A DNA stretch of 64,000 nt from Ensifer sp. LC11 (GTDB taxonomy: Bacteria > Pseudomonadota > Alphaproteobacteria > Rhizobiales > Rhizobiaceae): positions 62,001 to 126,000 of the forward strand of contig NZ_MBSO01000010.1 in the NCBI RefSeq assembly GCF_001695835.1. The letters are read 5' to 3'. The position numbers and the translations under genes were made by a program. This document shows, one piece after another, positions 28,125-53,534 of the stretch. The notes beneath the pieces are model-generated. The model searched no databases and was not told where the DNA came from. It saw only the letters and a list, made by a program, of their open reading frames with translations. Position 1 is the first letter of the stretch, and each line of letters opens with the position of its first letter.

Positions 28125-28136
28125 GGTGTTGGGCGG

Positions 28137-28835: not shown

Positions 28836-28875
28836 GTGAACCCCTGATTTTTGCGATCAGAGTGCATGAAACATC

Positions 28876-28894
28876 ACGGGTTTCAATCAGCCGA
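28876..28894 (+). repeat. Late-region 19-bp element, copy 1
   Basis: Reads ACGGGTTTCAATCAGCCGA, 32 nt before ATG 28927. Between it and the start lies CTGTT-gaa-AACAG followed at once by GAG of the ribosome site. It sits in the gap between the divergent gene at 28835 and the first late gene. Confidence 0.8.
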
Positions 28895-28926
28895 CGCCCG
28901 CACACTGTTGAAAACAGGAGATCATT

Positions 28927-29502
28927 ATGGCCGGAATCGAAGTTTCCTTCGACGCACAGAAGTTCGCTGCCGAAGCGCACCGGATGGTCCAGGTCGAGCT
29001 GCCAGCCGCCATCCGTGCGGGTATGCGATCTGCTGCCAACAGGATCACGCACCAGCTCGGGCTAATGCTCGCCGACAAGCTCGATGACCCCGTTCCTTTC
29101 ACCCAGCGCGGCTTCTATGCCGAGGTCAGCACTGCTGCAGCTGAGCCTGAGATGGAGATCGGCGTCAGGCCAATGCAAGCTGCATACCTGCAATACGTGT
29201 TCGATGGCGGCGTTGACAGCAACGCCCTTGTGCCAACGGCTGACACCGATCTCGACCGATACGGCAACATCCCTCGCGGTTACCTGGCCGCTGAGCAGGC
29301 TCAGGGCGCGGTCTGGATGACCGCACGCAGCGGCGTCCGCACATTGTTCGAAGACGGCAAAGGCCGCCTGAAGGCCGTGGCCATGATTGTCGACGAAGTC
29401 AGCTACGACAAGCTGGTCGACTTCGAGACGGAGGTCAGCATCGCTGTGTCCGATCTTCTACCCGATGCTGTCGCCGACAAGCTCGCCATTGCATTCGGCT
29501 GA
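28927..29502 (+). CDS. Phage structural protein (minor head/tail, HK97 gp10-like size)
   Basis: 191 residues starting GIEVSFDAQKFAAEAHRMVQVELPAAIRAGM, a pattern of tail-completion/minor tail proteins, followed by a PTADTDLDRYGNIPRGYLAAE segment. It lies upstream of the terminase genes, an unusual place for a structural gene. Function inferred weakly from composition and context. Confidence 0.45.
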   Translation: MAGIEVSFDAQKFAAEAHRMVQVELPAAIRAGMRSAANRITHQLGLMLADKLDDPVPFTQRGFYAEVSTAAAEPEMEIGVRPMQAAYLQYVFDGGVDSNALVPTADTDLDRYGNIPRGYLAAEQAQGAVWMTARSGVRTLFEDGKGRLKAVAMIVDEVSYDKLVDFETEVSIAVSDLLPDAVADKLAIAFG

Positions 29503-29511
29503 CCAGTTCAT

Positions 29512-29530
29512 CCGGGTCTCTATCACCCCC
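29512..29530 (+). repeat. Late-region 19-bp element, copy 2
   Basis: Reads CCGGGTCTCTATCACCCCC: the first 14 bases match the consensus, the last five differ. It begins 10 bp after the stop at 29502 and lies 124 nt before the small terminase gene; CTGGT ... ACCAG in between may form a hairpin. Confidence 0.75.
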
Positions 29531-29654
29531 ACCGGGTAGGTTCTTTCCAGGAGCAGAACGACGAGAGGGTTCGGCATCGTCCCACCCCTCTCAATTGCTG
29601 GTGCGAAAACCAGGTAACGGGTAACGCTCGCGCCACAACCTGGGGGAGAACGGC

Positions 29655-30248
29655 ATGGATTTTTCAAAGCTCGAACCGCTGTCGCAGGCAAAGTTTGCAA
29701 AGATTGCGGGTGTCTCTGGAAAAACCGTAAGTGATTGGAAATCAAAAGGTTATCTGACTTTTACGGATGATGGCCTCGTTGATTCAGCCGCTTCAGCAAA
29801 AGTTCTTCATGATCGCGGTTTGGGCAAGTTTGAGACCGTTACCCCACCTGCGGCAACCGTTACCCTCGCCGAGCCGACGGAAGAGTCTGACGCCGACACC
29901 GAAAGCCAGGCCGCCAATCTCATGATGCAAATCCTCGACGGTCAGGTCGAGATGGAGCTGCTCACATACAAGGAAGCCGAGACATACAAAGAAAACTATC
30001 TCGCGATGAACGCTCGGCTCAAATACGAGCATAGCGCCGGTCGGCTTGTAGAGAAGGCTGCGGTTGAAAAGCTATTCATCGAGCGCTGGTCGGCCGAGCG
30101 CGATGCTTGGGAAGTATGGCCGTCACTCGTCTGCGGCACGCTCGCCGCGAAGTTCGGCATCGATCAAATCCAGCTGCGTGTCGCTCTTGAAGATGCCGTT
30201 GAGGCTCAGCTCAAAGACCGCGTGTCCCGGCCAACGGTGAAACTATAA
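29655..30248 (+). CDS. terS: Terminase small subunit, lambda Nu1-like
   Basis: The 197-residue product has an N-terminal MerR-like winged HTH (AKFAKIAGVSGKTVSDWKSKGYL, residues ~13-35) that would bind the cos site, and a C-terminal helical region expected to contact the large subunit. GGGGGAG precedes the start. It overlaps terL by one base. Confidence 0.85.
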   Translation: MDFSKLEPLSQAKFAKIAGVSGKTVSDWKSKGYLTFTDDGLVDSAASAKVLHDRGLGKFETVTPPAATVTLAEPTEESDADTESQAANLMMQILDGQVEMELLTYKEAETYKENYLAMNARLKYEHSAGRLVEKAAVEKLFIERWSAERDAWEVWPSLVCGTLAAKFGIDQIQLRVALEDAVEAQLKDRVSRPTVKL

Positions 30249-32473
30249 TGGCTCGTCAGTGGCGTCCTGGCGAAGATGACAACGAGGAAGTCGGCGAGGG
30301 TATCAAGCTTGTCCTGCGTCGGTTATTTGACCAGTCGCTGCCAAAGTTGGCCGACCCGGCAAAGGTCGAGCAGGACGCCTTCAGCTTGGGCTATAGCCCG
30401 AACGAACGGCTGCTAGTCAGTGAGATAGCCGACCAACACCGCTACCTCGCTGGTGTTGGTGCATCGGAACCTGGCCTCTTTCGCACAGCCCGCACCCCGT
30501 ACCTGAAGGAGCCGATGGACAATGCGTCCGTGGGGTCACCGGTTTGGAAGACAGTGTTCGTTTCGGGTGCACAGACCGGCAAGTCGGAAGCCGGTAACAA
30601 CATGGTCTTCTATTGGATGTCGGCGGCACCCGGGCCGATCATGATGGTATTGCCGTCAGCCGGAGTCGCCAAGAAGGTCAGCAAGCAGCGCCTCACGCCG
30701 ATGATTCAAGCTTCGGATTATCTGAGGGAGCGTGTCATTGAAGACCTGCTGCTATCGAAGGAGTTTCGCGGCGGTCTCCTTTTCATGGCATCGGCCGAGT
30801 CCGGGGCCGACCTGCGTTCGCTTCCTATCCGATACCTGTATTGCGACGAGGTCGATGCATACGTTCTCGACGTCAACGGGGAAGGTCCGCCTGTCGGACT
30901 GGCCATGCGCCGCACGAACACCTTCAAGAGCAAGCGAAAGGTCTACCTGACTTCGACACCGACAAAAGAAGCGACGTCAGTAATCTGGCGTGAGTTCCTG
31001 CTCGGTGACCAACGTCTATACCACATGCCTTGCCCGTCCGAGAAATGCGGTAAGCTCCTAGTCTTCGAATTTGAAGGTCTGAAGTGGACTTGGGGCAAAG
31101 CAGCCGAGACGGTCTATTTCGAGTGCCCGCACTGCAAGTTCCACATTCATGAGCATCACAAGGAGACGATGCTCCCGGCCGGTCAGTGGATCGCGACCAG
31201 GAAGGACCTGGAGAACGTCGAGGAAGGCGTCCGTAGCTACCGCCTCAATTCGCTTTATTCGCCACTGGGCTGGCTCTCGTGGGCCGATATCGCTCGGACT
31301 TGGGAAGACTACCAAGGCTCGCCGATGAAGATCGCCGAGTTCCGCAATACCATCCTTGGCCTACCCTCCATTGAAGTCTCCGAAAAGGTCGATTGGGAAG
31401 CAGTCTACAATCGCGGAGACATCGGCGAGACGCCGTATGTCATGGAGAAGAACGGTCGCACTATCGTGCCGAGCGGCTGCCTTTTCCTTACGCGCGGGAT
31501 CGACGTCGGTCAGGACCATATCGAAATTGGTGTCCACGGCTACGGTCGTGACGGCCACCGGTTCTGGATCGATCATTTCCGCATCAGTGGCGACACCAAT
31601 CAGCAGGCAATCTGGGACGAGCTGACGCGGCATATCCAGCACGCATACGTCAATGTCTACGGCGTGCCGATGCTGCCAAAGAAGAACCTTATCGACACCA
31701 GCTATCTGACCCCAATGGTGAAGGCCTGGATACGCAAGCAGAACCAGACTCTGGTGCTGGGTGTGGACCCTATGGATGACAGGCCCATGCCAGTTAAGGT
31801 CGAAGTACAGGGTGAACCCGATCCGTTCAATTCAGGCAAGAAGACGAATGTCGGGGCACTGAAGATTGTCCAGGCGGATGTTAGCCACTTCAAGAGCGAG
31901 CTGCTCAGTATCCTGAATATCCCGACCCCGAGCGATACGACCGAAGCGCCGATGAACTGGTTCCACGTCCCTCTCAAGGGCGGAGAGTTCTCGAAGGAGC
32001 TGGCCAAGCAGCTAACGTCCGAGCGCAAGGTTCTCATCCGTGATCCGAGCGGTCTGATTACCGGAGAGAAGTACGTCCGCATCGAGGGTCGTCGAGCAGA
32101 AGCTCTCGACTGCCACAACTACGCCCGTGCAGGCGCATACCTGCTTGGGTGGGACCGCTTTACGGGGGCGCACTTCGACCGGCTCGAACAGCAGCTCCGT
32201 GATGCGGCAGATGCGCTGAAGGCCGAGCAGGCAGCAGAGGAACGCGGGGCTCCGGTCCAGAAACCGGTCTCTCGAACCAAGGTCGAAGCTCCTCCCATGG
32301 TGCCGAAGCTCGACATCACACCGCCAGGTCAGAAGCCGATGATTAAGATCACGCCACCGAAAACATCCGGGTCTCAATCAGCCAATCGTCCGACAGTTGA
32401 GGGAAAGCCTCGCCGCCACATCGTCCCGATGCCTGCGGCCGCGTTGCAGGGAGACGATGACGATGAGTTCTAA
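30248..32473 (+). CDS. terL: Terminase large subunit, lambda gpA (GpA) family
   Basis: The 741-residue product has ATPase Walker A SGAQTGKSEAGNN (~residue 105), Walker B YLYCDEVDA (~195), a zinc-ribbon pair CPSEKCG / CPHC (~261 and ~292), and a nuclease acidic strand GIDVGQDHIE (~417). It cuts cos DNA and drives packaging into the prohead. The C-terminal tail is Pro-rich and contains an in-frame copy of the 19-bp late element encoding SGSQSA. It overlaps the gpW gene by 11 bp. Confidence 0.95.
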   Translation: MARQWRPGEDDNEEVGEGIKLVLRRLFDQSLPKLADPAKVEQDAFSLGYSPNERLLVSEIADQHRYLAGVGASEPGLFRTARTPYLKEPMDNASVGSPVWKTVFVSGAQTGKSEAGNNMVFYWMSAAPGPIMMVLPSAGVAKKVSKQRLTPMIQASDYLRERVIEDLLLSKEFRGGLLFMASAESGADLRSLPIRYLYCDEVDAYVLDVNGEGPPVGLAMRRTNTFKSKRKVYLTSTPTKEATSVIWREFLLGDQRLYHMPCPSEKCGKLLVFEFEGLKWTWGKAAETVYFECPHCKFHIHEHHKETMLPAGQWIATRKDLENVEEGVRSYRLNSLYSPLGWLSWADIARTWEDYQGSPMKIAEFRNTILGLPSIEVSEKVDWEAVYNRGDIGETPYVMEKNGRTIVPSGCLFLTRGIDVGQDHIEIGVHGYGRDGHRFWIDHFRISGDTNQQAIWDELTRHIQHAYVNVYGVPMLPKKNLIDTSYLTPMVKAWIRKQNQTLVLGVDPMDDRPMPVKVEVQGEPDPFNSGKKTNVGALKIVQADVSHFKSELLSILNIPTPSDTTEAPMNWFHVPLKGGEFSKELAKQLTSERKVLIRDPSGLITGEKYVRIEGRRAEALDCHNYARAGAYLLGWDRFTGAHFDRLEQQLRDAADALKAEQAAEERGAPVQKPVSRTKVEAPPMVPKLDITPPGQKPMIKITPPKTSGSQSANRPTVEGKPRRHIVPMPAAALQGDDDDEF
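32367..32385 (+). repeat. Late-region 19-bp element, copy 3 (inside terL)
   Basis: Reads CCGGGTCTCAATCAGCCAA, inside the 3' end of terL in the frame TCC GGG TCT CAA TCA GCC (SGSQSA), 77 nt before the gpW start. The same variant in the same frame occurs at 41484. Confidence 0.75.
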
Positions 32474-32708
32474 CCAGGCCCGACTTCTGCAGCTCAATTC
32501 CTGGATTGCCGACGGTGAACGGGCGCTGTTCGAGCTGGCTACCGGGTCAAAAGTTGTGATGTTGAGCTACAGCATTGACGGCAACATGCAGCGCCAATTT
32601 AATCAGGCAAGTGCCCAGTTCCTGCGCGACCTGATCGTCCAATGGAAGTCTGAGGCTGCTAGCCTTGGAGGCGGAGGATTCCGTCGTCGTCCGATGATCC
32701 TTGCGTAA
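32463..32708 (+). CDS. Head-tail joining protein, lambda gpW-like
   Basis: 81 residues with ARLLQLNSWIADGERALFELATG followed by a short beta region and helix, fitting gpW in size, pattern and position (between gpA and gpB homologues). gpW stabilises packaged DNA and allows gpFII to bind. ATG 32463 overlaps the terL stop. Confidence 0.8.
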   Translation: MSSNQARLLQLNSWIADGERALFELATGSKVVMLSYSIDGNMQRQFNQASAQFLRDLIVQWKSEAASLGGGGFRRRPMILA

Positions 32709-32717
32709 GGATCGCCG

Positions 32718-34310
32718 ATGACAGTCACGATCATTCCTCCCTCTGCCGGTCCCCGTCATCCGAAGATGTATCAGCTCCTAAATGCTGACGGGTCGCCCAT
32801 GTCGTCTGTGTCCGCATCCGACACAGCGTTCAAGGCCGCCTCCCAGGAAGGCAAGATGCGGCTGTGGAACCCCGCTAAAGGTTCTGCGGATTCTGACTTA
32901 TTGCCGGAAAAGCCGACCATCGACGCGCGTTCGGTCGATCTCGTCCGCAACGAGGTCTCCGCGAAGTCGGGCATCGACACCTTACTAGACTTGGTGATCG
33001 GCACCGGGCCGACCATCGTGCCGATCCCTGACTATAAGGCTCTGGGTCTGGACAAGGAGTGGGCAGCAGAGTGGGCTCGTAACGTGCAGGGCATCGTGCA
33101 CGACTACATCGATTCAGAGGCTATGGACGTGACCCGCTCAGGAAATCTAACCGACAACTTGAGGATGGGTCTCCGCACTGAGATCGCACAGGGCGAACAG
33201 GCTGTCGTCCCATACTTCATCGAAGGCCGACCCGGCTCTGATTTCGCGACGTGCTTCCAGTGGATTGATCCCGACCGTATCAGCAATCCCCTCGGCACGT
33301 TCGACTCACAGTATCTCCGGTCAGGCATCGAGATTGACGAGTTCGGAGCACCACAGCGTTACCATGTGCAGAAAGTTCATCCCGCTGATGTAGGCACCTT
33401 CGCGGCAATCGAAGGGGCCTACGAATGGGAGGCAATCGACGCTTTGACCGAGTGGGGCCGACCCAGCTTCATACATGTTTTCGAACGTGAGCGTCCTGAC
33501 CAGCATCGTGGTCTATCGATGCTCGCGGCGATGATGCCGTTCTATAAGGACGCGTCCGACTACCGTGGGGCCGAAGTAAAGGCCGCCCTTGCAAACGCCA
33601 TTGTTGCGGGCTTCACCGAGAGTTCCATGGAAATGAGCCAACTGCTCGACATGTTCGGCGGGGACGCATCGTCGTTGCTTGCGGCACGTGCGGAATACAT
33701 CCTCAACATGCAACCTGGATCGATCTTGCCGCTATTCCCTGGTGACAAGTTTGCGTCGCACAACCCATCTCGTCCGAACGCTGCGTATGAGGGTTTCATG
33801 CGTGCGATCAAAAAGGACCAGTCGCTTGGCTTCAACTTGCCGCATCAGATCGCCATGAAAGACACCGACGGTGATAGTTATTCCAGTTTGAAGGGTGCCT
33901 TCAACATGGCACGGCGTGCCATTGCACCCCGACAGTCGTCCTCCAAAACGAAGTGCGTCGACAAGATCGTTCGCTGTTTGATGGAAGAGCTAGTCGGCAC
34001 CGGCATCATCGAAGCACCGGGTTTTTGGGACAACAACCGTACACGCAATGCCTGGCTTCGAACCCGGATCATCTGGGACGGTGAAGGGTGGCTTGATCCT
34101 GCTCGTGAGGCACAGGCAGCTCAGCTCCGCATTGCTCTCGGCATCAGCACCTACGAAATCGAGTGTGCGGCACAGGGTCTCGATTGGCGTGAAGTGATGG
34201 AACAGAGGTCGGTTGAGCAGCGCTTCATGAAAGCGCTCGACCTCGACCAGAATCAGTTGACGACCTCCATCGCTCTGGCTCCCCAAACGCCGGAGCGGCC
34301 CGAGCAATAA
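32718..34310 (+). CDS. Portal protein, lambda gpB family
   Basis: 530 residues, typical lambda-portal landmarks: LVRNEVSAKSGIDTLLDLVIGTG, WIDPDRISNP, GRPSFIHVFERERPDQHRG and DGDSYSSLKGAFNM. A dodecamer forms the DNA channel at the capsid vertex. It sits 9 bp after gpW and precedes the gpC-like protease. Confidence 0.93.
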   Translation: MTVTIIPPSAGPRHPKMYQLLNADGSPMSSVSASDTAFKAASQEGKMRLWNPAKGSADSDLLPEKPTIDARSVDLVRNEVSAKSGIDTLLDLVIGTGPTIVPIPDYKALGLDKEWAAEWARNVQGIVHDYIDSEAMDVTRSGNLTDNLRMGLRTEIAQGEQAVVPYFIEGRPGSDFATCFQWIDPDRISNPLGTFDSQYLRSGIEIDEFGAPQRYHVQKVHPADVGTFAAIEGAYEWEAIDALTEWGRPSFIHVFERERPDQHRGLSMLAAMMPFYKDASDYRGAEVKAALANAIVAGFTESSMEMSQLLDMFGGDASSLLAARAEYILNMQPGSILPLFPGDKFASHNPSRPNAAYEGFMRAIKKDQSLGFNLPHQIAMKDTDGDSYSSLKGAFNMARRAIAPRQSSSKTKCVDKIVRCLMEELVGTGIIEAPGFWDNNRTRNAWLRTRIIWDGEGWLDPAREAQAAQLRIALGISTYEIECAAQGLDWREVMEQRSVEQRFMKALDLDQNQLTTSIALAPQTPERPEQ

Positions 34311-34315
34311 TTCCT

Positions 34316-34334
34316 CCGGGTTTCAATCAGCCGA
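34316..34334 (+). repeat. Late-region 19-bp element, copy 4
   Basis: Reads CCGGGTTTCAATCAGCCGA, 6 bp after the portal stop and 34 nt before the gpC-like gene. It is followed by a 9-bp hairpin ATCTCCTGT-gctgaga-ACAGGAGAT whose right arm contains the AGGAG ribosome site. Confidence 0.85.
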
Positions 34335-34368
34335 TTGCGATCTCCTGTGCTGAGAACAGGAGATACGC

Positions 34369-35820
34369 ATGCGCTTTTTCAACCGTTTGAGATCGTCGGG
34401 GGAGCCGTGGCTGCTCACGCCAGAGGCCTTCCGTGCGATGTCGGAAGCTGCCGCTGAGCAGGACACGACGATCCGCGCCATTGCTAAAGAGTGGGGCGAG
34501 CCGGAGGAAGGTACCTGGGACGTAGAAGTTCACAATGGCGTCGCTGTCGTAAAGGTAGACGGCGTCCTGATGCGCAATTGGAGCATCTGGTCCTTTCTGT
34601 TTGGCGGCTCCGCTTACGAACTCCTGATCAAAGATATCGCCACCGCCATCAAAGACGACAACATCAAAGCCATCGTTCTCGATATCGACAGCCCTGGCGG
34701 CGAAGTTACCGGATGCGCCGAGTTGGCAAACGCCATCTTCGAGATGCGATCACAGAAGCCGATCATCGCATATGCGACCGGTACCGCTGCATCAGCCGCA
34801 TATTGGATCGCCTCCTCGTGCTCGAAGGTCATCATCAGTTCCACCTCCGCTCTCGGCTCCATCGGCTGCGTCATGGAGGTCAGTGACTATTCGTCGGCGC
34901 GGGAAAAAGCGGGCATCAAGGACATTCAGATTGTCAGCTCGCAGAGCCCTCTAAAGCGTCCGGACCTTAGCACCGACGAAGGTTTGTCAACGGTTCAGGC
35001 CCACGTCGACGCCATCGCCGCAGTCTTCATCGCTGACGTCGCGAAATTTAGGGGGGTCTCTATCAAACGTGTCAGCGAAGATTTCGGAAAGGGCGATTGC
35101 TTCATCGGACAAGCCGCCGTCGACGCCGGTTTGGCGGACGAGATCGGGAGCCTGGAAGCGGTGATCGCCGAATACGGAATCGAACAACAGGCCACGCCGA
35201 CAGTCGGCGTACCGGCCGATACGGGAGGAAATGGAATGCTGAAAGCTATCGCTAAGGCAACCAAGAAGACCGCCAAGATCGCTGCTAAGGCAAAGGCTGA
35301 GGAGCAGGACCAAGAAGCGGAGGACGAAGAGATCGATCCTGAAGCCGAAGATGATGTCGACACCGATGCTGAAGGTGAAGACGTCGATCCAGATGCAGAA
35401 GGCGAAGAGGACGTCGACGCGGAGGATGAAGACCTAGACCCCGACGCGGAGGACGAGGAAGTCGATCCGGATGCCGAGGACGAAGAAGAGCAACCTGTTT
35501 CGAATAAGGCTTCCGCCGCTCAGAAGCGTATTGCTGCGATTCTTCGTGCTCCGGAAGCTAGCGGACGCCGCAAGCTCGCCGAGCACCTCGCGCTAAACAC
35601 GCACCTTTCCAGCAAAGCCGCTCGGTCGATCCTGAAGGCGTCCCCGAAAGCGCAGGCGGCTTCGGGGAACTCGAAGGCTTCCAGTTCCTTCCGGTCGGCC
35701 ATGCTCGCCAAAGGGAACCCAAAAATCGGAAACGGTACCGGCAAGGGCAAGACCATGTCGGCTGAAGACAAAGCTGTCGACGCGATCCTCGCATCCGTTG
35801 ACCAGCTTCGCGGAAAGTAA
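34369..35820 (+). CDS. S49 capsid protease with C-terminal scaffold, lambda gpC-like
   Basis: The 483-residue N-terminal ~280 residues are an S49/SppA-type protease: LDIDSPGGEVTG, GTAASAAYWIAS (nucleophile Ser ~143) and a lysine in SQSPLKRP (~195). A highly acidic repeat region follows (~residues 305-375; DPDAEDEEVDPDAEDEE-type units), then a basic helical tail like a scaffold. In lambda, C protease and the Nu3 scaffold share the same arrangement. The upstream hairpin overlaps its ribosome site. Confidence 0.9.
   Translation: MRFFNRLRSSGEPWLLTPEAFRAMSEAAAEQDTTIRAIAKEWGEPEEGTWDVEVHNGVAVVKVDGVLMRNWSIWSFLFGGSAYELLIKDIATAIKDDNIKAIVLDIDSPGGEVTGCAELANAIFEMRSQKPIIAYATGTAASAAYWIASSCSKVIISSTSALGSIGCVMEVSDYSSAREKAGIKDIQIVSSQSPLKRPDLSTDEGLSTVQAHVDAIAAVFIADVAKFRGVSIKRVSEDFGKGDCFIGQAAVDAGLADEIGSLEAVIAEYGIEQQATPTVGVPADTGGNGMLKAIAKATKKTAKIAAKAKAEEQDQEAEDEEIDPEAEDDVDTDAEGEDVDPDAEGEEDVDAEDEDLDPDAEDEEVDPDAEDEEEQPVSNKASAAQKRIAAILRAPEASGRRKLAEHLALNTHLSSKAARSILKASPKAQAASGNSKASSSFRSAMLAKGNPKIGNGTGKGKTMSAEDKAVDAILASVDQLRGK
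35236..35820 (+). CDS. Nested scaffold protein, internal in-frame start (Nu3-like)
   Basis: ATG 35236 lies in the gpC frame and is preceded by GGGAGG (35223-35228) with 7-nt spacing, a better ribosome site than most in the operon. The 194-residue product would be MLKAIAKATKKTAKI..., the acidic repeats and the basic tail: a scaffold without protease. Lambda uses the same nested-gene design (C/Nu3). In-vivo use is inferred. Confidence 0.65.
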   Translation: MLKAIAKATKKTAKIAAKAKAEEQDQEAEDEEIDPEAEDDVDTDAEGEDVDPDAEGEEDVDAEDEDLDPDAEDEEVDPDAEDEEEQPVSNKASAAQKRIAAILRAPEASGRRKLAEHLALNTHLSSKAARSILKASPKAQAASGNSKASSSFRSAMLAKGNPKIGNGTGKGKTMSAEDKAVDAILASVDQLRGK

Positions 35821-35832
35821 GGGAGGATTACG

Positions 35833-36201
35833 ATGACCGCATCTATTCAATTTGACGAGCTGAAGCAGGTCGAAATCCTCGCCAGCAATCTACCGACCGC
35901 CATGGAGATGGTCACTATTGCAGCCGGTCAGAACCTGCCGCGTGGTGCCGTTCTCGGCCGCGTCACGGCGACGAAGGAATACGTCCTTTCGCTCGCCGCA
36001 TCCACCGATGGTTCCGAAACCCCAAGCGCGATCCTCGAAGAGGCTGTTGACGCTTCTGTAGGTGCCGACAAAGGGCCAGCCCATCTTTCCGGACATTTCG
36101 TCGCTCGCAACTTGACGTTCGGCACCGGCCATACAGCGGCCAGCACCAAGGACGGCCTGCGTGCATTCGGCATCTACCTCGATCTCGCGCCAGCGATCTA
36201 A
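35833..36201 (+). CDS. Head decoration protein, lambda gpD-like
   Basis: 122 residues with QNLPRGAVLGRVT, a run of Ser/Thr/Ala strands and GHFVARNLTFG, as in gpD trimers that clamp the expanded capsid. It lies between scaffold and major capsid genes as in lambda; GGGAGG precedes the start. Confidence 0.88.
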   Translation: MTASIQFDELKQVEILASNLPTAMEMVTIAAGQNLPRGAVLGRVTATKEYVLSLAASTDGSETPSAILEEAVDASVGADKGPAHLSGHFVARNLTFGTGHTAASTKDGLRAFGIYLDLAPAI

Positions 36202-36216
36202 GCAAGGAACAGACAC

Positions 36217-37236
36217 ATGAGCAATATCTATGATCCAATCGTCCTGGCGAAGACCGTTAAGCGTCTGATCCGCCCGAAGACGCATTTCCTGTCGAGCGCA
36301 TTCCCGATCATCGATGTCCAGGAGACTGAAATGGTCGCCATCGATATCGAGAAGTCTCGTCGGGCTCTAGCGCCTTTCGTTCACCCGGACATGCCAGGCC
36401 AAGCAGTCGATGCCCTGCCGTTCGAGACGGTTACGCTGAAACCGGCATACGTGAAGCCGACCAGCATCCTGAAGCCGAAGGACACGCAGAAGCGCCGCGC
36501 TGGCGAACGCATCGGAGGCGACATGACTCTCCGCGACCGCCGCGCCGCTGCAGTCGCTGAAACGCTGCTCGACCACGTCGACCAGATCACCCGCCGTAAA
36601 GAGTTCATGGCAGCTCAACTGCTGACGACCGGTAAGGCCACGATCACTGGCGAGAATTATCCGACCCGCATCATTGACTATCGTCGTGATCCTGATCTTA
36701 CCCTCACACTGACGGGCACGGACCGTTGGGGTCAGGCGGATGCAAAGCCCCTTGACGATTTGGAAGACATGGCAGAACGCGTCCATGAAAAGGAAGGCGT
36801 GACCGTGCGCAAGATCACCATGGACCCCCAGGCCTGGCGAGCGTTCAAGAAGGATAAGGATGTCAGAGAAATCCTCGACAACCGTCGTGCGGCCGGTGGC
36901 TATGCTGAGTTCGGCGCACTCGATCTAGCCAACGGTGCGCAGCTCGCTGGTGTCTTCGGGCTCTTCGAGGTTTGGGTCTACAGCGAGTATTACGAGCTGA
37001 ACGGCGTTAACTACCCGCTCATGGCACCAGGCACGGTCGTCGGACACTCCGATCAGATGGAAGGCATCCAAGTTCACGGTGCGATCCTGGACGAAGAAGC
37101 TCTACAGGCCATGGAAATCTTCCCGAACTCTTGGATCGAGCGGAACCCGAGCCGTCGCCTCCTACAATCGCAGTCTTCGCCAATCCTGAACCCTGGCCGC
37201 CGCAACGCGTCGTTCACGATCAAGGCATTCGGCTAA
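36217..37236 (+). CDS. Major capsid protein, lambda gpE-like
   Basis: 339 residues of HK97-fold gpE type: TETVxxD-like core (QETEMVAIDIEKSRRALAP), GQAVDALPFETVTLKPAYVKP, and C-terminal FPNSWIERNPSRRLLQSQSSP with a RNASFTIKAFG end. AAGGAA precedes the start. It forms the capsid shell with the decoration protein. Confidence 0.94.
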   Translation: MSNIYDPIVLAKTVKRLIRPKTHFLSSAFPIIDVQETEMVAIDIEKSRRALAPFVHPDMPGQAVDALPFETVTLKPAYVKPTSILKPKDTQKRRAGERIGGDMTLRDRRAAAVAETLLDHVDQITRRKEFMAAQLLTTGKATITGENYPTRIIDYRRDPDLTLTLTGTDRWGQADAKPLDDLEDMAERVHEKEGVTVRKITMDPQAWRAFKKDKDVREILDNRRAAGGYAEFGALDLANGAQLAGVFGLFEVWVYSEYYELNGVNYPLMAPGTVVGHSDQMEGIQVHGAILDEEALQAMEIFPNSWIERNPSRRLLQSQSSPILNPGRRNASFTIKAFG

Positions 37237-37290
37237 CGGATTTGGGCCTCTGGGAGATCAGAGGCTCTCCGAACTTTGGAGAAAAGAAAA

Positions 37291-37560
37291 ATGGCAACCG
37301 CAAAGAGACAAGAACAGGTCACCTCGGAAAATGTGGAAGGTTCTGTTCTTCCGACCCTCATTCTCACCGGCTCGGTCAAGATCGCCGGAGAATACCATGG
37401 GGCTAAGTCCAAGATCGACACCGACGACCGGGAGCTTCACGCGGCGCTCTTGGCATCCGGTGCCGCCAAGAAATTCCTTGTCGTTGAGAAGGATGAGGTC
37501 CTCCTCGATGAGGAAACCGGCCTTCCAGTCGAGGTCGAAAACGTAGTCGAGACCGAGTGA
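37291..37560 (+). CDS. Small phage protein in the gpFI position
   Basis: 89 residues, beginning MATAKRQEQVTSE, with a short beta segment (LILTGSVKIAGEYHGA) and a very acidic C-terminus. Its position after gpE fits a gpFI-type packaging/head protein, but there is no sequence support. ATG 37291 follows GGAGAAAAG; a strong terminator follows. Confidence 0.55.
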   Translation: MATAKRQEQVTSENVEGSVLPTLILTGSVKIAGEYHGAKSKIDTDDRELHAALLASGAAKKFLVVEKDEVLLDEETGLPVEVENVVETE

Positions 37561-37587
37561 GACATTTTCTCCAGTTGTCTCGCTCCC

Positions 37588-37627
37588 GAGGCCGTCTGTA
37601 GCTCCTTGCAGACGGCCTCGTCATTTT
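37588..37627 (+). terminator. Rho-independent terminator after the head genes
   Basis: A perfect 11-bp stem, GAGGCCGTCTG (37588-37598) with CAGACGGCCTC (37609-37619), followed by GTCATTTTC. It ends the head operon or attenuates it; element copy 5 begins two bases later, implying a new transcription or translation unit. Confidence 0.8.
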
Positions 37628-37628
37628 C

Positions 37629-37647
37629 AGGGGTCTCTATCAGCCGA
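37629..37647 (+). repeat. Late-region 19-bp element, copy 5
   Basis: Reads AGGGGTCTCTATCAGCCGA, directly after the terminator and 35 nt before ATG 37683. The spacer holds AGCTC-taacgacg-GAGCT, whose right arm covers the GGAG ribosome site. Confidence 0.82.
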
Positions 37648-37682
37648 TGACTCCACGATAGCTCTAACGACGGAGCTTTGAG

Positions 37683-38018
37683 ATGGCTGACACCAATATC
37701 GATTATCTACTGACAGTTTTCGGCGAGCATCTGATCACCCCCGTTCCGCCCATGCCCAGACTGGTGACTAGCATCCCCGTGGCCGCCGGAGACACGGTCG
37801 AGCACACGTTCGACGACACGACCGAATTCATGTCGTTCCGAGTGCCCCCAGGTACCGAAGGTGCCAGCATGCTCGGTGGTTCTATGGCTGAGGCGTCCGG
37901 AAAAACGTTCCTTCCAATCTATCCAGGAGATGAGGGCCGTAAGGTCGATCCGGGCTCAAAAGTCTGCATCAAGAACTCCGGTGCATCTGCCATCGAAATC
38001 TACATCGCGGAGATTTAA
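37683..38018 (+). CDS. Hypothetical structural protein
   Basis: 111 residues, beta-rich (VAAGDTVEHTFDDTTEFMSFRVPPGTEGA), acidic, no recognised family. It is coupled to the glycine-rich gene 2 bp downstream, so it could be a base or chaperone for that protein. Confidence 0.55.
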   Translation: MADTNIDYLLTVFGEHLITPVPPMPRLVTSIPVAAGDTVEHTFDDTTEFMSFRVPPGTEGASMLGGSMAEASGKTFLPIYPGDEGRKVDPGSKVCIKNSGASAIEIYIAEI

Positions 38019-38020
38019 CG

Positions 38021-38866: not shown

Positions 38867-39063
38867 TGCACAATCGATATTTTAAAGTCGACATTGCCAC
38901 GCATTACATCGTGGCAGTTACCGTTGGTCAGGCACCTAGACCGGGCATCGAGTTCCTCGAACAGACGCCGGAGACCGCTCACGTCGGCATCGGCTGGAGC
39001 TATGTCGGAGGTGAGTTCACCGACACCCGCGAGGCCTACAAGCGGAATTTGGGAGCTGTCTGA
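38866..39063 (+). CDS. Small tail-fibre-assembly-like protein
   Basis: 65 residues ending IGWSYVGGEFTDTREAYKRNLGAV; the IGWxYxxGxFT pattern is common in small proteins next to fibre genes. It overlaps the preceding stop by one base and the next start by one base. A chaperone role for the glycine-rich protein is plausible. Confidence 0.5.
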   Translation: MHNRYFKVDIATHYIVAVTVGQAPRPGIEFLEQTPETAHVGIGWSYVGGEFTDTREAYKRNLGAV

Positions 39064-39416: not shown

Positions 39417-39865
39417 AGCTAGAACTAGACCTTTGCGACACGATCCGTGACCTCCTGATTGCCGGTTTGCCAGATATCGGAGGCCGCATCCTAGTTGATC
39501 AGAAATTTCCGACGGATAAACGGTACTGGCCGTGCGTCCTCGTTTGGATGCCACGCGTCGACTACCGGCATACGGGCAAACGCATCGGACATCGGCCGAG
39601 AACGGGTTTACCAGCACTCACGATCACGGTCGCCGATGACGGCTCTAAGCCGGAAATCGGCCGATCACTTGCCCTGCTCGGCCAGCAGATCGACGACATT
39701 TTGACCGGTAGCGAAAGCCTGCAGGACGGCGGCCTAACTTTATCGTGGTCTCAATCAGATGTTGCCCGACACAATGGCGCAATGCTCGCAGTCCGGCAGC
39801 TCGGCTATGGCCTCACTTACGAGACGCGCGAAGGGGAAACAACCGAGACGATTGGGTCTCGATAA
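39413..39865 (+). CDS. Tail terminator protein, gpU-like
   Basis: 150 residues, GTG start overlapping the previous stop (GTGA). RYWPCVLVWMPRVDY and GLPALTITVADDGSKPEIGRSL are consistent with a gpU-type tail terminator, and position between FII- and V-like genes supports it. A weak relative of the 19-bp element (GGGTCTCGATAAG, 39854-39866) spans its stop, just before the tail-tube gene. Confidence 0.65.
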   Translation: MKLELDLCDTIRDLLIAGLPDIGGRILVDQKFPTDKRYWPCVLVWMPRVDYRHTGKRIGHRPRTGLPALTITVADDGSKPEIGRSLALLGQQIDDILTGSESLQDGGLTLSWSQSDVARHNGAMLAVRQLGYGLTYETREGETTETIGSR

Positions 39866-39876
39866 GGGAGGAATAC

Positions 39877-40656: not shown

Positions 40657-40680
40657 TCTTTATCGATCCCACTTTATGAA

Positions 40681-40709
40681 AGGCCGTCGTAGTGCGGCCT
40701 CTCTTTTTT
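40681..40709 (+). terminator. Rho-independent terminator after the tail tube gene
   Basis: AGGCCG (40681-40686) pairs with CGGCCT (40695-40700), followed by CTC and six Ts. Tail tube protein is needed in many copies, so partial termination here fits. Element copy 6 follows immediately. Confidence 0.82.
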
Positions 40710-40728
40710 CCGGGTCTCTATCAGCCGA
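40710..40728 (+). repeat. Late-region 19-bp element, copy 6
   Basis: An exact consensus copy, CCGGGTCTCTATCAGCCGA, adjoining the terminator and 41 nt before ATG 40770. The spacer folds TTTTCCAG-aacatcagaa-CTGGAGAA (one mismatch), placing the GGAG ribosome site in the right arm. Confidence 0.87.
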
Positions 40729-40769
40729 TAGCGTCACGCTTTTCCAGAACATCAGAACTGGAGAACGCG

Positions 40770-41234: not shown

Positions 41235-41602
41235 ACGACCAAGGCCCAGATCGCCTGGGCTTTTTCGAAGCGCTCGACGAGATGTGCGCTGCCCTTTGCG
41301 AAGCCGGTTATCCAGACCCGTGGATGATGACACCTCGCCAGATCGTACACCGTTTCCAGGTTCATCACCGTCTCAAGCAGCGCTCTGACATTCGTGATCT
41401 TGAGATCGCCGTCCTTGGCGCTCGTGGCGAGCAAAAGGCGCTGACCGGTTTCATCAACCGCCGGTCGGGAGGCTCGGATTCATCCGGGTCTCAATCAGCC
41501 AAACCGGACACAATTCCAGAATTGGAGACCAAGCGCGTGTCGACAGCCACGGCGTCGCGCCTCGACCGGGAGATCGAGGACATGGGGTGGAGTAAGCGGT
41601 AA
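40770..41602 (+). CDS. Tail assembly chaperone fusion gpGT by -1 frameshift
   Basis: The 0 frame reads AAA AAA AAC at 41139-41147; slipping back one base at A-AAA-AAC continues as CCT TTC GAT CCT and stays open to the stop at 41602. The product is ~277 residues (126 from the G frame plus 151). The T part contains LGFFEALDEMCAALCEAGYPDPWMM and carries an in-frame copy of the 19-bp element (SGSQSA). Lambda and most siphophages make G and GT this way to load the tape measure protein. The downstream frame has no good independent start, supporting frameshifting. Confidence 0.82.
41484..41502 (+). repeat. Late-region 19-bp element, copy 7 (inside the T frame)
   Basis: Reads CCGGGTCTCAATCAGCCAA, identical to the copy in terL and read in the same frame (SGSQSA), 99 nt before the tape measure gene. 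Confidence 0.78.
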
Positions 41603-44600: not shown

Positions 44601-45543
44601 TGACGTCAAGTCGACGTCGGCCGACGGAATTGCCTATGTTCGTGACCAATACGGGCAGTTGGTACCATATGTTGAACAGCAGCGGGACGGTATGCGCTCG
44701 GCCGCGCAGGGGGCATTTGACGCCGTCGGAGAACGGGCCACAAAGGTCGGTGAGGATGTACGCACCACGTGGGATACCCTGCCCGGCTACATCGACCAGC
44801 AAGCGAAGTCGGTCAACTCCGGCATCAATCAGTTGCTCGATCAGGCTGATCGTTATCAGACTACCGTCCTCGGGAAGATGGAAGCCGGATGGACCCGCTT
44901 CAACGAGTTCTTCCGCAGCTCAGTGAATACCTTCAGCGGACTCTTCGCCGATCTCTGGGGTTCTTTCCTGGAAACACCGCAGCTTGCCTATGAAGCGGTC
45001 GTCAATGCATGGGGCGGCATGGACGACCACTTCGCCAGTGTCGTCGGAAATGTCGACGGTTACTTCGAGACGCTCTGGAAAAACGTGAAATCCGGTGCCA
45101 CCGAAGCCTGGCAAAAAGTCCGGACCATGTTTGCCCCGGGCTTCTCGTCTGCGAGCGAAGCCATCACCGGAGCGGTCAGCCAGGTCCAGAAGTTCGCGAA
45201 CGGCGGCACTATCTCCGGCCCCGGTACCGGCACGTCGGATTCGATCTGGGCGAAGGTTTCAACCGGCGAAGGTATCCTGACGTCCCGTGCCGTTTCTCAC
45301 TACGGCTCAGGCATCGTCGACATGCTGAACAGTCTGGTCATGCCGAAAAACTTCATGGCGACGCCTGCCTACGCTCCGTCTCGATCCGGACAGGACCTGG
45401 GCCGCTTGTCCCTTGCAATTGATGGCCGTGGCGTCGGTGGGACCGTCTACGCCGACAGCGATGCGCTGCGCTCGATCAAGCGAGACTTCCGCAATCGAGC
45501 TTCGTCGGCACGTGGCGCAGTTCCACGCTGGAGAGGATACTGA
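41602..45543 (+). CDS. Tape measure protein, gpH-like
   Basis: 1313 residues, the longest gene of the window. Early helical domain, hydrophobic segments around residues ~560-680 (LQLGLILLALKL, GIVAAIVAAAAAVWYW) that may insert in the host membrane during ejection, and a C-terminal coiled region. Three repeats of a (Y/L)VxDxxGQ(L/V)VP motif start near residues 880, 931 and 1011. Overlap with the GT stop (TAATG) couples it to its chaperone. At ~1.5 angstrom per residue it suggests a tail of roughly 200 nm. Confidence 0.92.
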   Translation: MAKAPEIKINAKVTGFDEIFARLQDLESRFKQVSAKIDASASKATDGLTTGLKNSQTAIATTASIGVKSFGAIKGAASTFVSVLQTGVSILASLGRMAVNVGGSIALLGGGAYTAMKAFSTQTASSIADMGNLAKAAGVPVERFSRLASAVRGVGGNVNDLTTGLQSLSDKVIEAGKDAEGTAAGAFEQIGVEVRDAQGNLKSTSTVIDEVADALQRVPSDTLRAGAAFDLFGTSAQKILPILRNGAKGLAEAEQRADRFGTVVTAAQAEKMEGLLVKQRSVNEALRGLAYKTVDAIFPTLTDRSEEWADAIAKNSARVSKFLGDTLVTVKQIGDDVVSAFQGKTVEIENSVVRRMAPALYTVRRISLDLIDTLNGRGASRELWLNDVGKSLSAATDGALQFGLAILGAAGYAQDDLPTIAQLAEGVRIAIESLKNGLAGNDSSDAIMPWASNIGESLRNLGIAVGAVASVIIKHKDEITAALAFITKGFSDLVQAVATLLNGGQISEENPFEFLQPIAEFVRANSDMIIATIVAIPAQIAGAFEFLKSFFVTIYGFLDSFAQMIGLDSALQLGLILLALKLTGVGALLQKLGTAFSTTLFIVNGLTGVFKNLFSLIAVSVVPAISSLATMIVGATAPIWLFAAAVAGIVAAIVAAAAAVWYWRDELWSAVTWIGGTLWSAMKGIVNALLHPVDTFYKAMDFVKSKLRSFAEWIGLFDKEIESPFDTAAEKIEEKTGSTVDRLKDKYGELKESASDTADDIRKEMSDAAVDSEKAFDSFLSTAPSAADAAVDGMKNKLSELPEAVKGNAEDLQKSLGSTFDGYASKASPAIDGMKAKLDALGQRSEELTARGKATYDELSTDGLNVDLSGAGAAVDKGMLLVKDKFGQLVPYVDGVSSETEQRTDELGKNLAKTLDQQVSNAQKLSSDGTAYVLDQYGQVVPVVGKIADEANARSRDILQGLSDQAVQSNDAIQQSLGELPGFLGEQGKLVRQSLDQQIGDVKSTSADGIAYVRDQYGQLVPYVEQQRDGMRSAAQGAFDAVGERATKVGEDVRTTWDTLPGYIDQQAKSVNSGINQLLDQADRYQTTVLGKMEAGWTRFNEFFRSSVNTFSGLFADLWGSFLETPQLAYEAVVNAWGGMDDHFASVVGNVDGYFETLWKNVKSGATEAWQKVRTMFAPGFSSASEAITGAVSQVQKFANGGTISGPGTGTSDSIWAKVSTGEGILTSRAVSHYGSGIVDMLNSLVMPKNFMATPAYAPSRSGQDLGRLSLAIDGRGVGGTVYADSDALRSIKRDFRNRASSARGAVPRWRGY

Positions 45544-46025
45544 TGACGACCGAAACTGTTCTTGATCTCGTTGAACTTGGCATAGTGCCACAGTCGGCAA
45601 GGGCGCTTGGCCAGACCTTGACGCCGATTGCAAATGGTTCGCGTCGCCGTCTTGCAAATGGGGAGCTGGTCAGCCGCAAGCGGGTTTCTTTCGAAAAATT
45701 CGCATCCACGATCAGCTTCTCCGACACCTACGCACCGGCTTTCGGAGACCTTTGGGCGGGGGAGACCATCACGGTCTATTGCGTCTGCGAAATCAACGAA
45801 AAGGTCGGCAGACCCTTCCAACGGCCACCGGTCCCAGGCTCCGTCATCTACCGTGATGCTGGCGGCAAGGTCGTGCCTCATGGCAGCGATGAAACCGTGG
45901 CTCCGGTCGGCGCGTTGTGGCGCACCTACCGTCCGATCATCGTATTCATGGTCGACGGCTGGGATATGGACACGGACGAGTACGCTGCTGTCGTCAGCTC
46001 CACCCTGAATCTGTTTGAGGCCTGA
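45543..46025 (+). CDS. Minor tail protein (unassigned)
   Basis: 160 residues, beta-rich; TISFSDTYAPAFGDLWAGETITVYCVCEINEKVG suggests a tail-tip component. Overlaps the tape measure stop by one base and lies 2 bp from the next gene. No lambda gpM/L/K homologue can be recognised in this row. Confidence 0.6.
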   Translation: MTTETVLDLVELGIVPQSARALGQTLTPIANGSRRRLANGELVSRKRVSFEKFASTISFSDTYAPAFGDLWAGETITVYCVCEINEKVGRPFQRPPVPGSVIYRDAGGKVVPHGSDETVAPVGALWRTYRPIIVFMVDGWDMDTDEYAAVVSSTLNLFEA

Positions 46026-46027
46026 TC

Positions 46028-47947: not shown

Positions 47948-47949
47948 TC

Positions 47950-50126: not shown

Positions 50127-50142
50127 TCTCTCGGCTATTGCG

Positions 50143-50184: not shown

Positions 50185-50192
50185 GAGGTGCC

Positions 50193-50840: not shown

Positions 50841-50845
50841 TTCAA

Positions 50846-50864
50846 CCGGGTCTCTATCACGCCC
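50846..50864 (+). repeat. Late-region 19-bp element, copy 8
   Basis: Reads CCGGGTCTCTATCACGCCC, 5 bp after a stop and 46 nt before ATG 50911. The spacer has CCCTC-caac-GAGGG. Confidence 0.78.
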
Positions 50865-50910
50865 GTATGCTCACAATCCCTCCAACGAGGGGACCAAGTG
50901 GACAGTTTGA

Positions 50911-51153
50911 ATGGCAGCCGACGACACGTTGCTCGAAGTGGTGAGGAAGCTCTCCGTAGTCGAGACCAAGATCGATATCTTTATTAACAAGCAGACTTCG
51001 TCTGACCAAAAAATTGCGGCGATTGAGACTGATCTTTCGGCTCTCAAGACGGAAATCCGAGGCTGGAAGTCAAAATTTGCCGGTGCGGCCGCCGTTATCT
51101 CGGCTGCAATGGTCTTTTTGGTTCCGTTTGTCAAAAATAAACTAGGACTATAA
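50911..51153 (+). CDS. XhlA-like membrane protein (holin-associated candidate)
   Basis: 80 residues: an N-terminal coiled coil (LLEVVRKLSVVETKIDIFI ... SALKTEIRGWKSK) and one C-terminal transmembrane helix (AAAVISAAMVFLVPFV). This is the architecture of XhlA proteins, which act with holins in some phages. Function inferred from architecture. Confidence 0.65.
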   Translation: MAADDTLLEVVRKLSVVETKIDIFINKQTSSDQKIAAIETDLSALKTEIRGWKSKFAGAAAVISAAMVFLVPFVKNKLGL

Positions 51154-51293
51154 CTCCTTGCGCCGCCTGATCGCGTCAACAGATTGGGATTTAAGCTGCT
51201 GTATTTGTTGGCAAAAATTGTTGCGCCGACAGAATTATTTGCGAACATCGTATTCAAGCCGCACAAAAAACAACAAGGCGGCGGGAGATATAA

Positions 51294-53177
51294 ATGTTTC
51301 AGCAGCATGATCGCGCGGCGGATGCGCAACTTATACATCCGTACCTGTCAAAAGGACTTTCGTTTACTAAGATCGCCGAAGCCACCGGCCTCGCGCGATC
51401 CCGATGCTACCGAGCAGCAAAATGGCTCGAAGAAAACTCCAGCCCGGACGAAATTCACGTCGCGATCCACGAGGTCGAAGGACCGGAGAAGCCCAAAAAG
51501 AAGAAGGGTCCGACCGAAACAGAGATCAGGCAGAAGGTCGCCACTGACGAGCTGACGGTCCCCTTCTCAAACTGGTTGGAGATCGGCCGTTGGGTCCGTG
51601 AAGCTGCTGAGCCCGTCGACATTTACGAGACCGACGAAGATGGCGAGCAGGTTCTGGTCGGCCAGAAAATCGACCCCGGCGTGATGTGGCCTGTTGATTG
51701 GGACGGTCCCAAGACCTACGCCCAGACGGCCTATGAGACTGGTCCGGCAAGACCATCAGTAAAGGCTGGTTACATTCTGGGCTATGTCCAAGAAGGAACT
51801 CCGATACACGGACCGGCTTGGATCAATATGATTTCCCTGGCGGCCGCCTATGGTGGCTACGCGGTCGGGATGGGGGGTGGAACCTACAGCAAGCGCTGGT
51901 TCATGCGGAAATCGAAAAAGGACGTAACCGAGATCGCTCCCTGGTCCGCAGTCGCCGAACCTTATGTGACGCGCAAGCGCCTCGATATCAGCCCGAAAAT
52001 CCAGTTTGCTGCTGAGATGAACCTGTCTCCGACAGCCACCCACCCCTTGACGGGGTTCGAAACCTACATAGGCGGCATCACGACCGTCTTCCCTCACCCA
52101 AAACGCGAAGTTCGGAGCCTTCCCAGAGGCCATTGGAACGAGTCCGTCACAGCCTGGACGACAGGCTCCATGACCGTCCCGAATTACATCTTGCAGAAAG
52201 CTGGTTTGAAAGCACTTAAGGCTCATGCAATCGGCTTCGTCATCGTCGAAATCGATCACGACGACAACGTCTTCGCACGCAATGTTAAATGCGATCCGGT
52301 ATCCGGCGCTTTCTATGACTTGGACCTGCATGTCGACCGAGGGATCGTGAGATTCGCAGCGGATGTCCGCCGAGAACAAGGGCTACTGGGGCCAGTGCTG
52401 GGCGTTGGATGTAGCCATGTCAGGATCGCCAACAACCGCTACCTGCGTGCGATTTATGGACTGGGGGGATACCCGACCGAAGACCTGCCGTTGATCGACG
52501 CTGTCGACGCTTCGGTACAGACCTTTCACGATCTTTTCGACGGCGGCTCGATCAACCATCACGAAGATAATGATGCCATCGCTCTCTACAAGCGTCACGC
52601 GCGGGGCACGGGTGTCTTACTCGAAGAAGTGCAACACGCTGCCGATTTCCTGGTAGAGACCTACCGGCCTACGTGCGAGACCGTGGTCGTCTATTCCAAC
52701 CACGATGATTTCCTTCGTCGCTGGCTTCTGAAGTCCTCCGATAGGGTCGACGTCCAAAACTCGAAGCTCTGGCATCGGTTGAACTGGGTCGTCCGAGAGC
52801 ACATCGACCAAGGCCAGAACATCAACATTTTTGAGCACCTGCTGCGGGAACGGCGACCGGATGCTGAATTCACCTTCGCCACCATGGCGGGTCTATGTGA
52901 GCGCCACGGTTATCAGCTCCAATACCACGGTGACCGCAATCCGAATGGTGCCAGAGGTTCGACAGCAGGCCTGGCCAAGATCGGGAAGCCCATCCTGAAA
53001 GCCCATGATCACGGGATGGCTCTTATAGACGAGTGCATATCCCTCGGGGCGATCATCGATGAAGAGCAAGCCGAATACGCAATCGGTCCATCGTCATGGG
53101 CTGCAGGATACGCTCTCGTGCACTGTGATGGAAACGCCCAGCTCGCGACCCTGGTCGGAGAAAAATGGCGGGCTTAG
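51294..53177 (+). CDS. T5 A1-like metallophosphatase-fold protein with N-terminal HTH
   Basis: 627 residues. Residues ~18-48 form a helix-turn-helix (LSFTKIAEATGLARSRCYRAAKWLEE). The remainder resembles the phage T5 A1 family; metallophosphoesterase-type motifs are visible as GCSHVRI (~370), YSNHDD (~466) and KAHDHG (~569). In T5, A1 is a pre-early protein needed for host DNA breakdown. Here it lies in the late region of a temperate phage. Family placement is by eye. Confidence 0.65.
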   Translation: MFQQHDRAADAQLIHPYLSKGLSFTKIAEATGLARSRCYRAAKWLEENSSPDEIHVAIHEVEGPEKPKKKKGPTETEIRQKVATDELTVPFSNWLEIGRWVREAAEPVDIYETDEDGEQVLVGQKIDPGVMWPVDWDGPKTYAQTAYETGPARPSVKAGYILGYVQEGTPIHGPAWINMISLAAAYGGYAVGMGGGTYSKRWFMRKSKKDVTEIAPWSAVAEPYVTRKRLDISPKIQFAAEMNLSPTATHPLTGFETYIGGITTVFPHPKREVRSLPRGHWNESVTAWTTGSMTVPNYILQKAGLKALKAHAIGFVIVEIDHDDNVFARNVKCDPVSGAFYDLDLHVDRGIVRFAADVRREQGLLGPVLGVGCSHVRIANNRYLRAIYGLGGYPTEDLPLIDAVDASVQTFHDLFDGGSINHHEDNDAIALYKRHARGTGVLLEEVQHAADFLVETYRPTCETVVVYSNHDDFLRRWLLKSSDRVDVQNSKLWHRLNWVVREHIDQGQNINIFEHLLRERRPDAEFTFATMAGLCERHGYQLQYHGDRNPNGARGSTAGLAKIGKPILKAHDHGMALIDECISLGAIIDEEQAEYAIGPSSWAAGYALVHCDGNAQLATLVGEKWRA

Positions 53178-53512
53178 GCCCTCCGTTTTCCGTCACGTTC
53201 GATCCGCTCTCGCAGCATTGTCAGAGCCCGGTCTACCGGGCTCTCACCTTTCGCCAAATCCCGAGCGTCGAATTTTTGGGTGTCGAGACCGGCATCTGAA
53301 CGTTTCGCTTTCAACATCACGTCGGCGGTGAAGGCTTCAAATTCCTTCGCCGCCTGGTCTCGTGCCGGGAATCTTTCCGGATGCTGCTTCCTGATGTCGG
53401 TCAGTACAACGACGTAAGGAAAGTCGGGGTGTTGGAAGAACCCCTCTCCTTTCTCGGTGATATCGCGAGTGAACTCGCGGATCGCATGCGGCTCGAAAAC
53501 TAAGTCTTTCAT
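53174..53512 (-). CDS. Antisense small protein, moron candidate
   Basis: 112 residues (from ATG 53512; the frame is open to 53554), starts MKDLVFEPHAIREFTRDITE, charged, no recognised domain. It is opposite to the late operon, its 3' end overlaps the A1-like gene by 4 bp, and element copy 9 lies immediately upstream of its start. It could be lysogen-expressed. Confidence 0.5.
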   Translation of the reverse strand: MKDLVFEPHAIREFTRDITEKGEGFFQHPDFPYVVVLTDIRKQHPERFPARDQAAKEFEAFTADVMLKAKRSDAGLDTQKFDARDLAKGESPVDRALTMLRERIERDGKRRA

Positions 53513-53515
53513 TTC

Positions 53516-53534
53516 CCGGGTCTCTATCAGCCGA
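53516..53534 (+). repeat. Late-region 19-bp element, copy 9
   Basis: An exact consensus copy, CCGGGTCTCTATCAGCCGA, 42 nt before the endolysin start and directly in front of the minus-strand gene start at 53512. A weak stem GGAGCC ... GGTTCC lies in the spacer. Confidence 0.87.

Follow-up and report, generated by a model that had tools for sequence, protein, structure and literature searches.

The window analysed here, 64,000 nucleotides of Ensifer sp. LC11 (contig NZ_MBSO01000010.1, positions 62,001 to 126,000), carries a prophage in whose late region a short element recurs on a single strand. Its likely ends and attachment sites are marked by a 45-bp direct repeat (14250-14294 and 62820-62864), whose right copy lies inside a tRNA-Met gene. 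PHROG matches identify genes for the terminase subunits, head-tail adaptor, portal, protease, decoration, major head, head closure, major tail and tape measure proteins, and the amidase gene at 53577 was named by Pfam. The same prophage is present in a viral collection as IMGVR_UViG_2751185814 (four pieces compared, 0 differences). The element ranges from just upstream of the first late gene to the amidase gene, and exact cores occur nowhere else in the window on either strand, which bears out an earlier note on this DNA that had confined the element to the late region.

The core of the element, GGGTYTCWATCA, occurs in 10 exact copies, all on the + strand and spanning 28878-53529 (about 28.9-53.5 kb), with one-mismatch cores at 39746 and 54426. 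These 12 matches with at most one mismatch compare with 0.82 expected and a maximum of 5 in 100 shuffles, so the chance origin that the earlier note had raised does not account for them, and the repeat is real. All nine copies listed in that note lie on the + strand where it placed them; an exact core at 35054, inside the protease gene, and the one-mismatch core at 39746 had escaped it. Six of the nine (28876, 34316, 37629, 40710, 50846 and 53516) do end 32-46 nt before a start codon, and terminator-like stems do stand directly 5' of the copies at 37629 and 40710. A search with the 19-mer allowing up to 3 mismatches recovered 8 of the nine, the copy at 50846 being more divergent. The conserved block is longer than the 19 bp given in that note, taking in T-rich sequence on its 5' side and a -10-like hexamer on its 3' side. 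We count 39746 as a genuine element; 35054 and 39746 both match the downstream pattern described below, and 54426 does not. Across the 6.2-Mb genome there are 12 exact cores, 10 of them in the prophage, and the reversed control gave 0. The 2 cores outside the prophage compare with about 1.8 expected by base composition; the host copy number is no higher than chance, and there is thus no host regulon.

The downstream hexamer has the form xAxxxT and lies 11 nt from the core (12 nt at two sites), with A at the implied +1. When the nine reported sites are aligned on the core, A stands at core end +13 in 7/9, T at +17 in 8/9 and A at +24 in 7/9, the same spacing as the -11, -7 and +1 positions of promoters. 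In an agnostic test of columns the best one had P 0.001 and the best three P 0.0003, and a test of this triple, framed after these columns were seen, gave P 0.0002. The flank of the copy at 29512 deviates because that copy adjoins a cos-like sequence, in which its hexamer falls, and it was left out of later statistics. The other eight sites gave 19/24 matches, whereas 10,000 shuffles averaged 10.3 and never exceeded 16. Among held-out sites, 35054 matched 3/3 at 11 nt and 39746 matched 3/3 at 12 nt (1/3 at 11), with 0/3 at 54426; a 3/3 match would arise by chance in 1% of cases with the spacing fixed and in 2% when either spacing is allowed. With 11 or 12 nt allowed, the 11 window sites have T(-7) in 11/11 and A(-11) and A(+1) in 10/11 each.

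Two other phages and one fragment carry the element. The first, G171, is a prophage of Allorhizobium borbori DSM 26385 (pieces L064 and L065; terminase 54% against the window). The whole Allorhizobium genome contains CGGGTCTCACGCG three times, all on the + strand and in the late block, and there are a fourth exact GGGTCTC copy at L064:12506 and degenerate copies at L064:7115 and L065:3247, so that 6/11 window sites have an element at the matching place. Among 394 genomes of the family, CCGGGTCTCACGCG occurs in 17 and in more than 2 copies only in G171. The second, IMGVR_UViG_2687453209 (pieces L180 and L177; portal 54% and tail gene 59% against the window), has ten GGGTCTC copies, 7 of which continue ACGCR, plus one TAGTCTC copy. 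Gene-by-gene comparison puts the element at the places of 10/11 window sites, 37629 having no counterpart; its eleventh copy, L180:15254, follows a terminator two genes further on. Fragment 3300014042_000051 has three copies. In the viral collection TTYCCGCCGGGTCTCACGCR was found in 6 stretches, all of them in the two viral contigs just described and in 2739367697, which has the same sites as G171, and CGGGTYTCWATCAGCC occurs in 3/397 genomes of the order and is repeated only in the Ensifer genome itself.

The downstream pattern recurs in these phages. Ten sites of 2687453209, its cos-adjoining site left out, gave 25/30 matches at 12-nt spacing (T(-7) 10, A(-11) 7, A(+1) 8), with a maximum of 18 in 5,000 shuffles. 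The four sites of G171, without its two degenerate ones, gave 9/12 (T 4, A 3, A(+1) 2; P 0.0008). The two phages are alike at some sites and are not fully independent of each other; both differ from the window in spacing and in the second half of the element, which is WATCA in the window and mostly ACGCR in the relatives. This second-half change runs across the sites, as if the whole set had changed along with a single binding factor. At the lysis gene the site has persisted though the gene behind it differs, being an amidase gene in the window, which has no relative in 2687453209, and a glycosyl hydrolase 108 gene in G171 and 2687453209. Short boundary repeats are possible in mosaic phages, and one could read the element as a passive repeat of this sort, a gene-boundary remnant or recombination site with no regulatory role. 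The many copies at gene boundaries, one of them before the swapped lysis gene, would suit such an origin. It is made very improbable by the several copies that lie within genes, by the start-like pattern at fixed spacing, and by places that are kept even as most second halves change in concert from phage to phage.

We think it likely, from the sequence comparisons, that the element serves as the upstream recognition block in a family of phage late promoters. A phage-encoded DNA-binding protein, either an activator or sigma-like, would bind a block of ~19-26 bp centred near -30 that replaces the host -35. Host RNA polymerase would thereby be directed to the weak -10 xAxxxT that lies 11-12 nt further on, and transcripts would begin mostly at A. 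Some eleven promoters across the head, tail and lysis genes would be switched on together, two placed right after terminators, one in the protease gene before a possible scaffold start and one adjoining cos. A late promoter part or phage-activator site was among the roles offered in the earlier note, and it is the one favoured by the constant distance to the -10-like hexamer and the A at +1 across differing elements, the matching places and the chance level of host copies.

One-way repeated sites, concentrated in one phage and at chance level in the host, would also be expected of a repressor operator or of stoperators, which are known from phage L5. On that explanation a prophage repressor would silence the late promoters or block polymerase in the lysogen, and overlap of its sites with a -35 would likewise fix their spacing to the -10. 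However, the early block has no sites, no repressor was recognised in the prophage, and neither a simple scan of 26000-45900 nor the aligned sites gave a -35-like hexamer in or beside the block that would make a constitutive promoter. We regard operators as quite unlikely, and control by the element would be positive rather than negative.

The remaining proposal of the earlier note was a signal acting at the RNA level. On this explanation the element, once transcribed, would help or hinder translation of the gene that follows, by itself or together with the downstream hairpin, as proposed for the start-associated sequences (SAS) of cluster K mycobacteriophages. It draws on the single orientation, on the short distance to a start at six of the nine listed copies, and on hairpins around the Shine-Dalgarno (SD) sequence. 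Predicted leaders at near-start sites are 12-32 nt long; 5/11 sites, four in coding sequence and one beside cos, are distant from the next start, with predicted leaders of 59-147 nt. Such a signal would not be expected to come with xAxxxT and +1 at fixed spacing, and relatives without the element also have hairpins. We regard it as unlikely.

The hairpins may still bear on how the putative promoters work. The protease leader folds at -20.0 kcal/mol, and its SD is open at 0.00 in read-through RNA and at 0.38-0.53 in RNA from the predicted start. For the 17 near-start sites in four phages, minus 3 without a recognised SD, median SD openness over the resulting 14 was 0.09 in read-through RNA, 0.43 from the predicted start and 0.35 with the 18 nt before the start (-18..-1) shuffled; 6/14 were clear, lying in the lowest tenth of shuffles. 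At some genes, folding places the -10 to +1 stretch in the 5' arm of a hairpin that would mask the ribosome site; RNA starting at the predicted position would lack that arm. Read-through RNA would then be poorly translated and promoter-started RNA would not. Inspection by eye showed similar hairpin arms in the leader of the protease gene in L163 and L164, two relatives that have the same genes (terminase 57% and 52%), and the hairpin is therefore a separate feature that some promoters overlap.

Several observations weigh against late promoters of this design. L163 and L164 have no element: L163 has a single four-mismatch match, and L164 and its second piece, L176, have none. The check on relatives named in the earlier note came out mixed, with these two lacking the element and two phages and one fragment carrying it. 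Orthology of the protease site comes partly from conserved codons, VS codons in L163 and L164 repeating part of the core; at the site before the major tail gene the codons of L163 and L164 differ. The quality of the -10 hexamers is poor, and the one at 34316 (TCTCCT) has no A(-11). The triple test was picked after viewing the columns in the same nine sites, a reservation that does not touch the agnostic test, the held-out sites or the other phages. The hairpin effect is clear at the 6/14 sites only and is reversed at L065:5836 (0.76 versus 0.39), and hairpins also occur where the element does not. Finally, BLAST found no similar helix-turn-helix (HTH) protein common to the phages, and BLAST of the early genes gave no shared regulator.

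Other searches bear on what the putative factor could be. The family listing for 46 open reading frames (ORFs) of A2 covered 25 of 34 Pfam and 25 of 45 PHROG families; none of the families listed for the scanned ORFs was a sigma factor, MotA or AsiA, and no Q-like protein was recognised in the prophage. The single-subunit phage RNA polymerase family PF00940 had no match in the Ensifer genome, and control genomes gave none either. Two ORFs below the cut-off are weak leads, an HTH-like one at 25651-25938 (E 0.008) and a sigma region 4-like one at L180:4785-5093 (E 0.0021). They have no similarity to each other. Single-sequence AlphaFold models of two HTH candidates were weak (mean predicted local distance difference test scores of 64.5 and 59.7). 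The sole early gene found in the window, G171 and 2687453209 is AbiEii-like, and it is also present in L164.

Phages of the lambda type have a single late promoter with Q antitermination. The prophage resembles them in that its head, tail and lysis genes all run in one direction, and differs in that about eleven promoter-like sites and internal terminator-like stems take the place of one long transcript. The kind of element proposed here is already known. In T4 middle promoters, as described in PMC6755090, a MotA box centred near -30 stands in for the -35, and the host-type -10 that follows it has to be excellent. The prophage core, at -35 to -24, is likewise a conserved box at a fixed distance from a -10 hexamer. 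Unlike the T4 promoters so described, it has another sequence, serves late rather than middle genes and precedes a -10 that is poor against TATAAT (CACACT, GACACT, TCTCCT), and because of that poor match we do not class it as a T4 middle promoter.

The likeness to the SAS and extended SAS (ESAS) of cluster K phages that the earlier note had drawn holds for one of the two. The SAS is the 13-bp GGGATAGGAGCCC placed 3-9 bp before the start codon, whereas the prophage element has another sequence and ends at least 32 nt before starts. The ESAS is closer in function: PMC11373665 reports putative SigA-like promoters inside the ESAS of Adephagia (cluster K), and both are repeated intergenic elements ahead of a subset of genes. 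The ESAS is a 17-bp inverted repeat pair with a short spacer and with -35 and -10 17-18 bp apart, while the prophage element is one asymmetric block with no -35, serving late genes in other hosts. For the overlap with hairpins, PMC3014915 offers T4 gene e, where a late promoter lies at the 5' arm of a hairpin hiding the ribosome site and RNA started there escapes it; this was shown by experiment in T4, and in the prophage it is suggested by folding, for a subset of sites.

We found no precedent in the open-access literature for the set, its shared places and its sequence change between phages, nor any rhizobial late promoters of such a kind. A bolder and only tentative picture is that of a lambda-type lineage in which the single late transcript has been replaced by about eleven dispersed promoters read by one putative phage factor. 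The whole set would have been re-keyed between relatives (WATCAGCCGA versus ACGCR, spacing 11 versus 12) with nearly all promoters in place, even at the exchanged lysis gene, and promoters in the ribosome-site hairpin arm at several genes would doubly lock the late genes while the phage is a lysogen. If so, this is a small natural promoter set, present in several phages, whose regulator and nearly all sites changed specificity together, which would bear on regulon rewiring without loss of function. It would also add, for lambda-type siphophages, a way of controlling late genes other than one promoter plus antitermination, and it supplies base-level RNA start predictions (Table 1) and a search handle for a putative activator or sigma-like factor of rhizobial phages.

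Table 1. Sites of the element in the prophage late region, with candidate -10 hexamers, predicted RNA starts and places in related phages
Feature	Position	Strand	Setting	-10-like hexamer	Predicted RNA start	Counterparts
Element 1	28876..28894	+	before first late gene (start 28927)	CACACT 28901-28906	28913	TAGTCTCACGCA at L180:5718
Element 2	29512..29530	+	adjoins cos-like sequence before terS (29655)	TAGGTT 29537-29542, within cos-like sequence		L180:6334
Element 3	32367..32385	+	within end of terL; next gene 32463	GACAGT 32392-32397	32404	L180:9208
Element 4	34316..34334	+	before protease gene (34369)	TCTCCT 34341-34346	34353	L180:11973; degenerate L064:7115
Element 5	35052..35070	+	within protease gene, ahead of in-frame start 35236	GAAGAT 35077-35082	35089	L180:12713; L064:7863
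Element 6	37629..37647	+	after terminator-like stem 37587-37620; gene 37683	CACGAT 37654-37659	37666	none at this place in relatives
Element 7	39744..39762	+	core one mismatch; end of gene 39413; major tail gene 39877	CACAAT 39770-39775 (12 nt)	39782	L180:17371; L064:12506
Element 8	40710..40728	+	after terminator-like stem 40681-40700; gene 40770	CACGCT 40735-40740	40747 (G)	L180:18888; L064:13461
Element 9	41484..41502	+	within gene 41282, ahead of tape measure gene (41602)	CACAAT 41509-41514	41521	L180:19654
Element 10	50846..50864	+	before gene 50911	CACAAT 50872-50877 (12 nt)	50884	L177:14724; degenerate L065:3247
Element 11	53516..53534	+	before amidase gene (53577)	GACACT 53541-53546	53553	L177:16954; L065:5836
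Protease-leader hairpin	34341..34362	+	5' arm, -10 to -1 stretch; 3' arm, ribosome site AGGAG			

An exact scan of viral contigs for CGGGTYTCWATCAGCC gave 32 stretches, of which 4 (6 matches) are IMGVR_UViG_2751185814; the other 28, with one match each, were taken as chance. Matches of the ACGGGATTCAATCACCG type in L044-L046 lie on the strand opposite the capsid gene, and we took them for coding sequence. A repeat search run de novo on the 20 stretches of relatives, with no background model, was dominated by GC-rich coding repeats. In the phage collection the late block as DNA and the tail protein at 46028 were unmatched and terminase matches were all <60% identity; in the plasmid collection only the portal was matched, at <60%.

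Several other features of these phages were noted. The cos-like sequence CCCCCACCGGGTAGGTTCTTTC lies at 29526-29546, before terS, and has near counterparts in G171, L163, L164 and 2687453209; one G is missing from the copy in the window, in line with its element-to-hexamer spacing, which is one shorter. Inside the protease gene, at 35222-35238, a strong SD (GGAGGA) precedes an in-frame ATG at 35236, an arrangement also present in G171. This internal start possibly yields a scaffold protein, which may be likened to lambda C/Nu3. The portal gene of L163, a metagenome relative, appears as two ORFs (6412-7986) and may be interrupted or mis-assembled. Outside the late block, an ORF for a Rep_3-type replication initiator at 20321-22153 on the - strand, unusual for an integrated prophage, has a weak relative in G171. 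The palindrome TGACATGTCA, twice, and the inverted repeat AATGTCAACAT/ATGTTGACATT, seen by eye in 22580-22665 and 25075-25115, are possible operators. In the right prophage arm, at 59298-62007 on the - strand, genes for a NotI-type endonuclease, a C5 DNA methylase and Vsr form a restriction-modification set.

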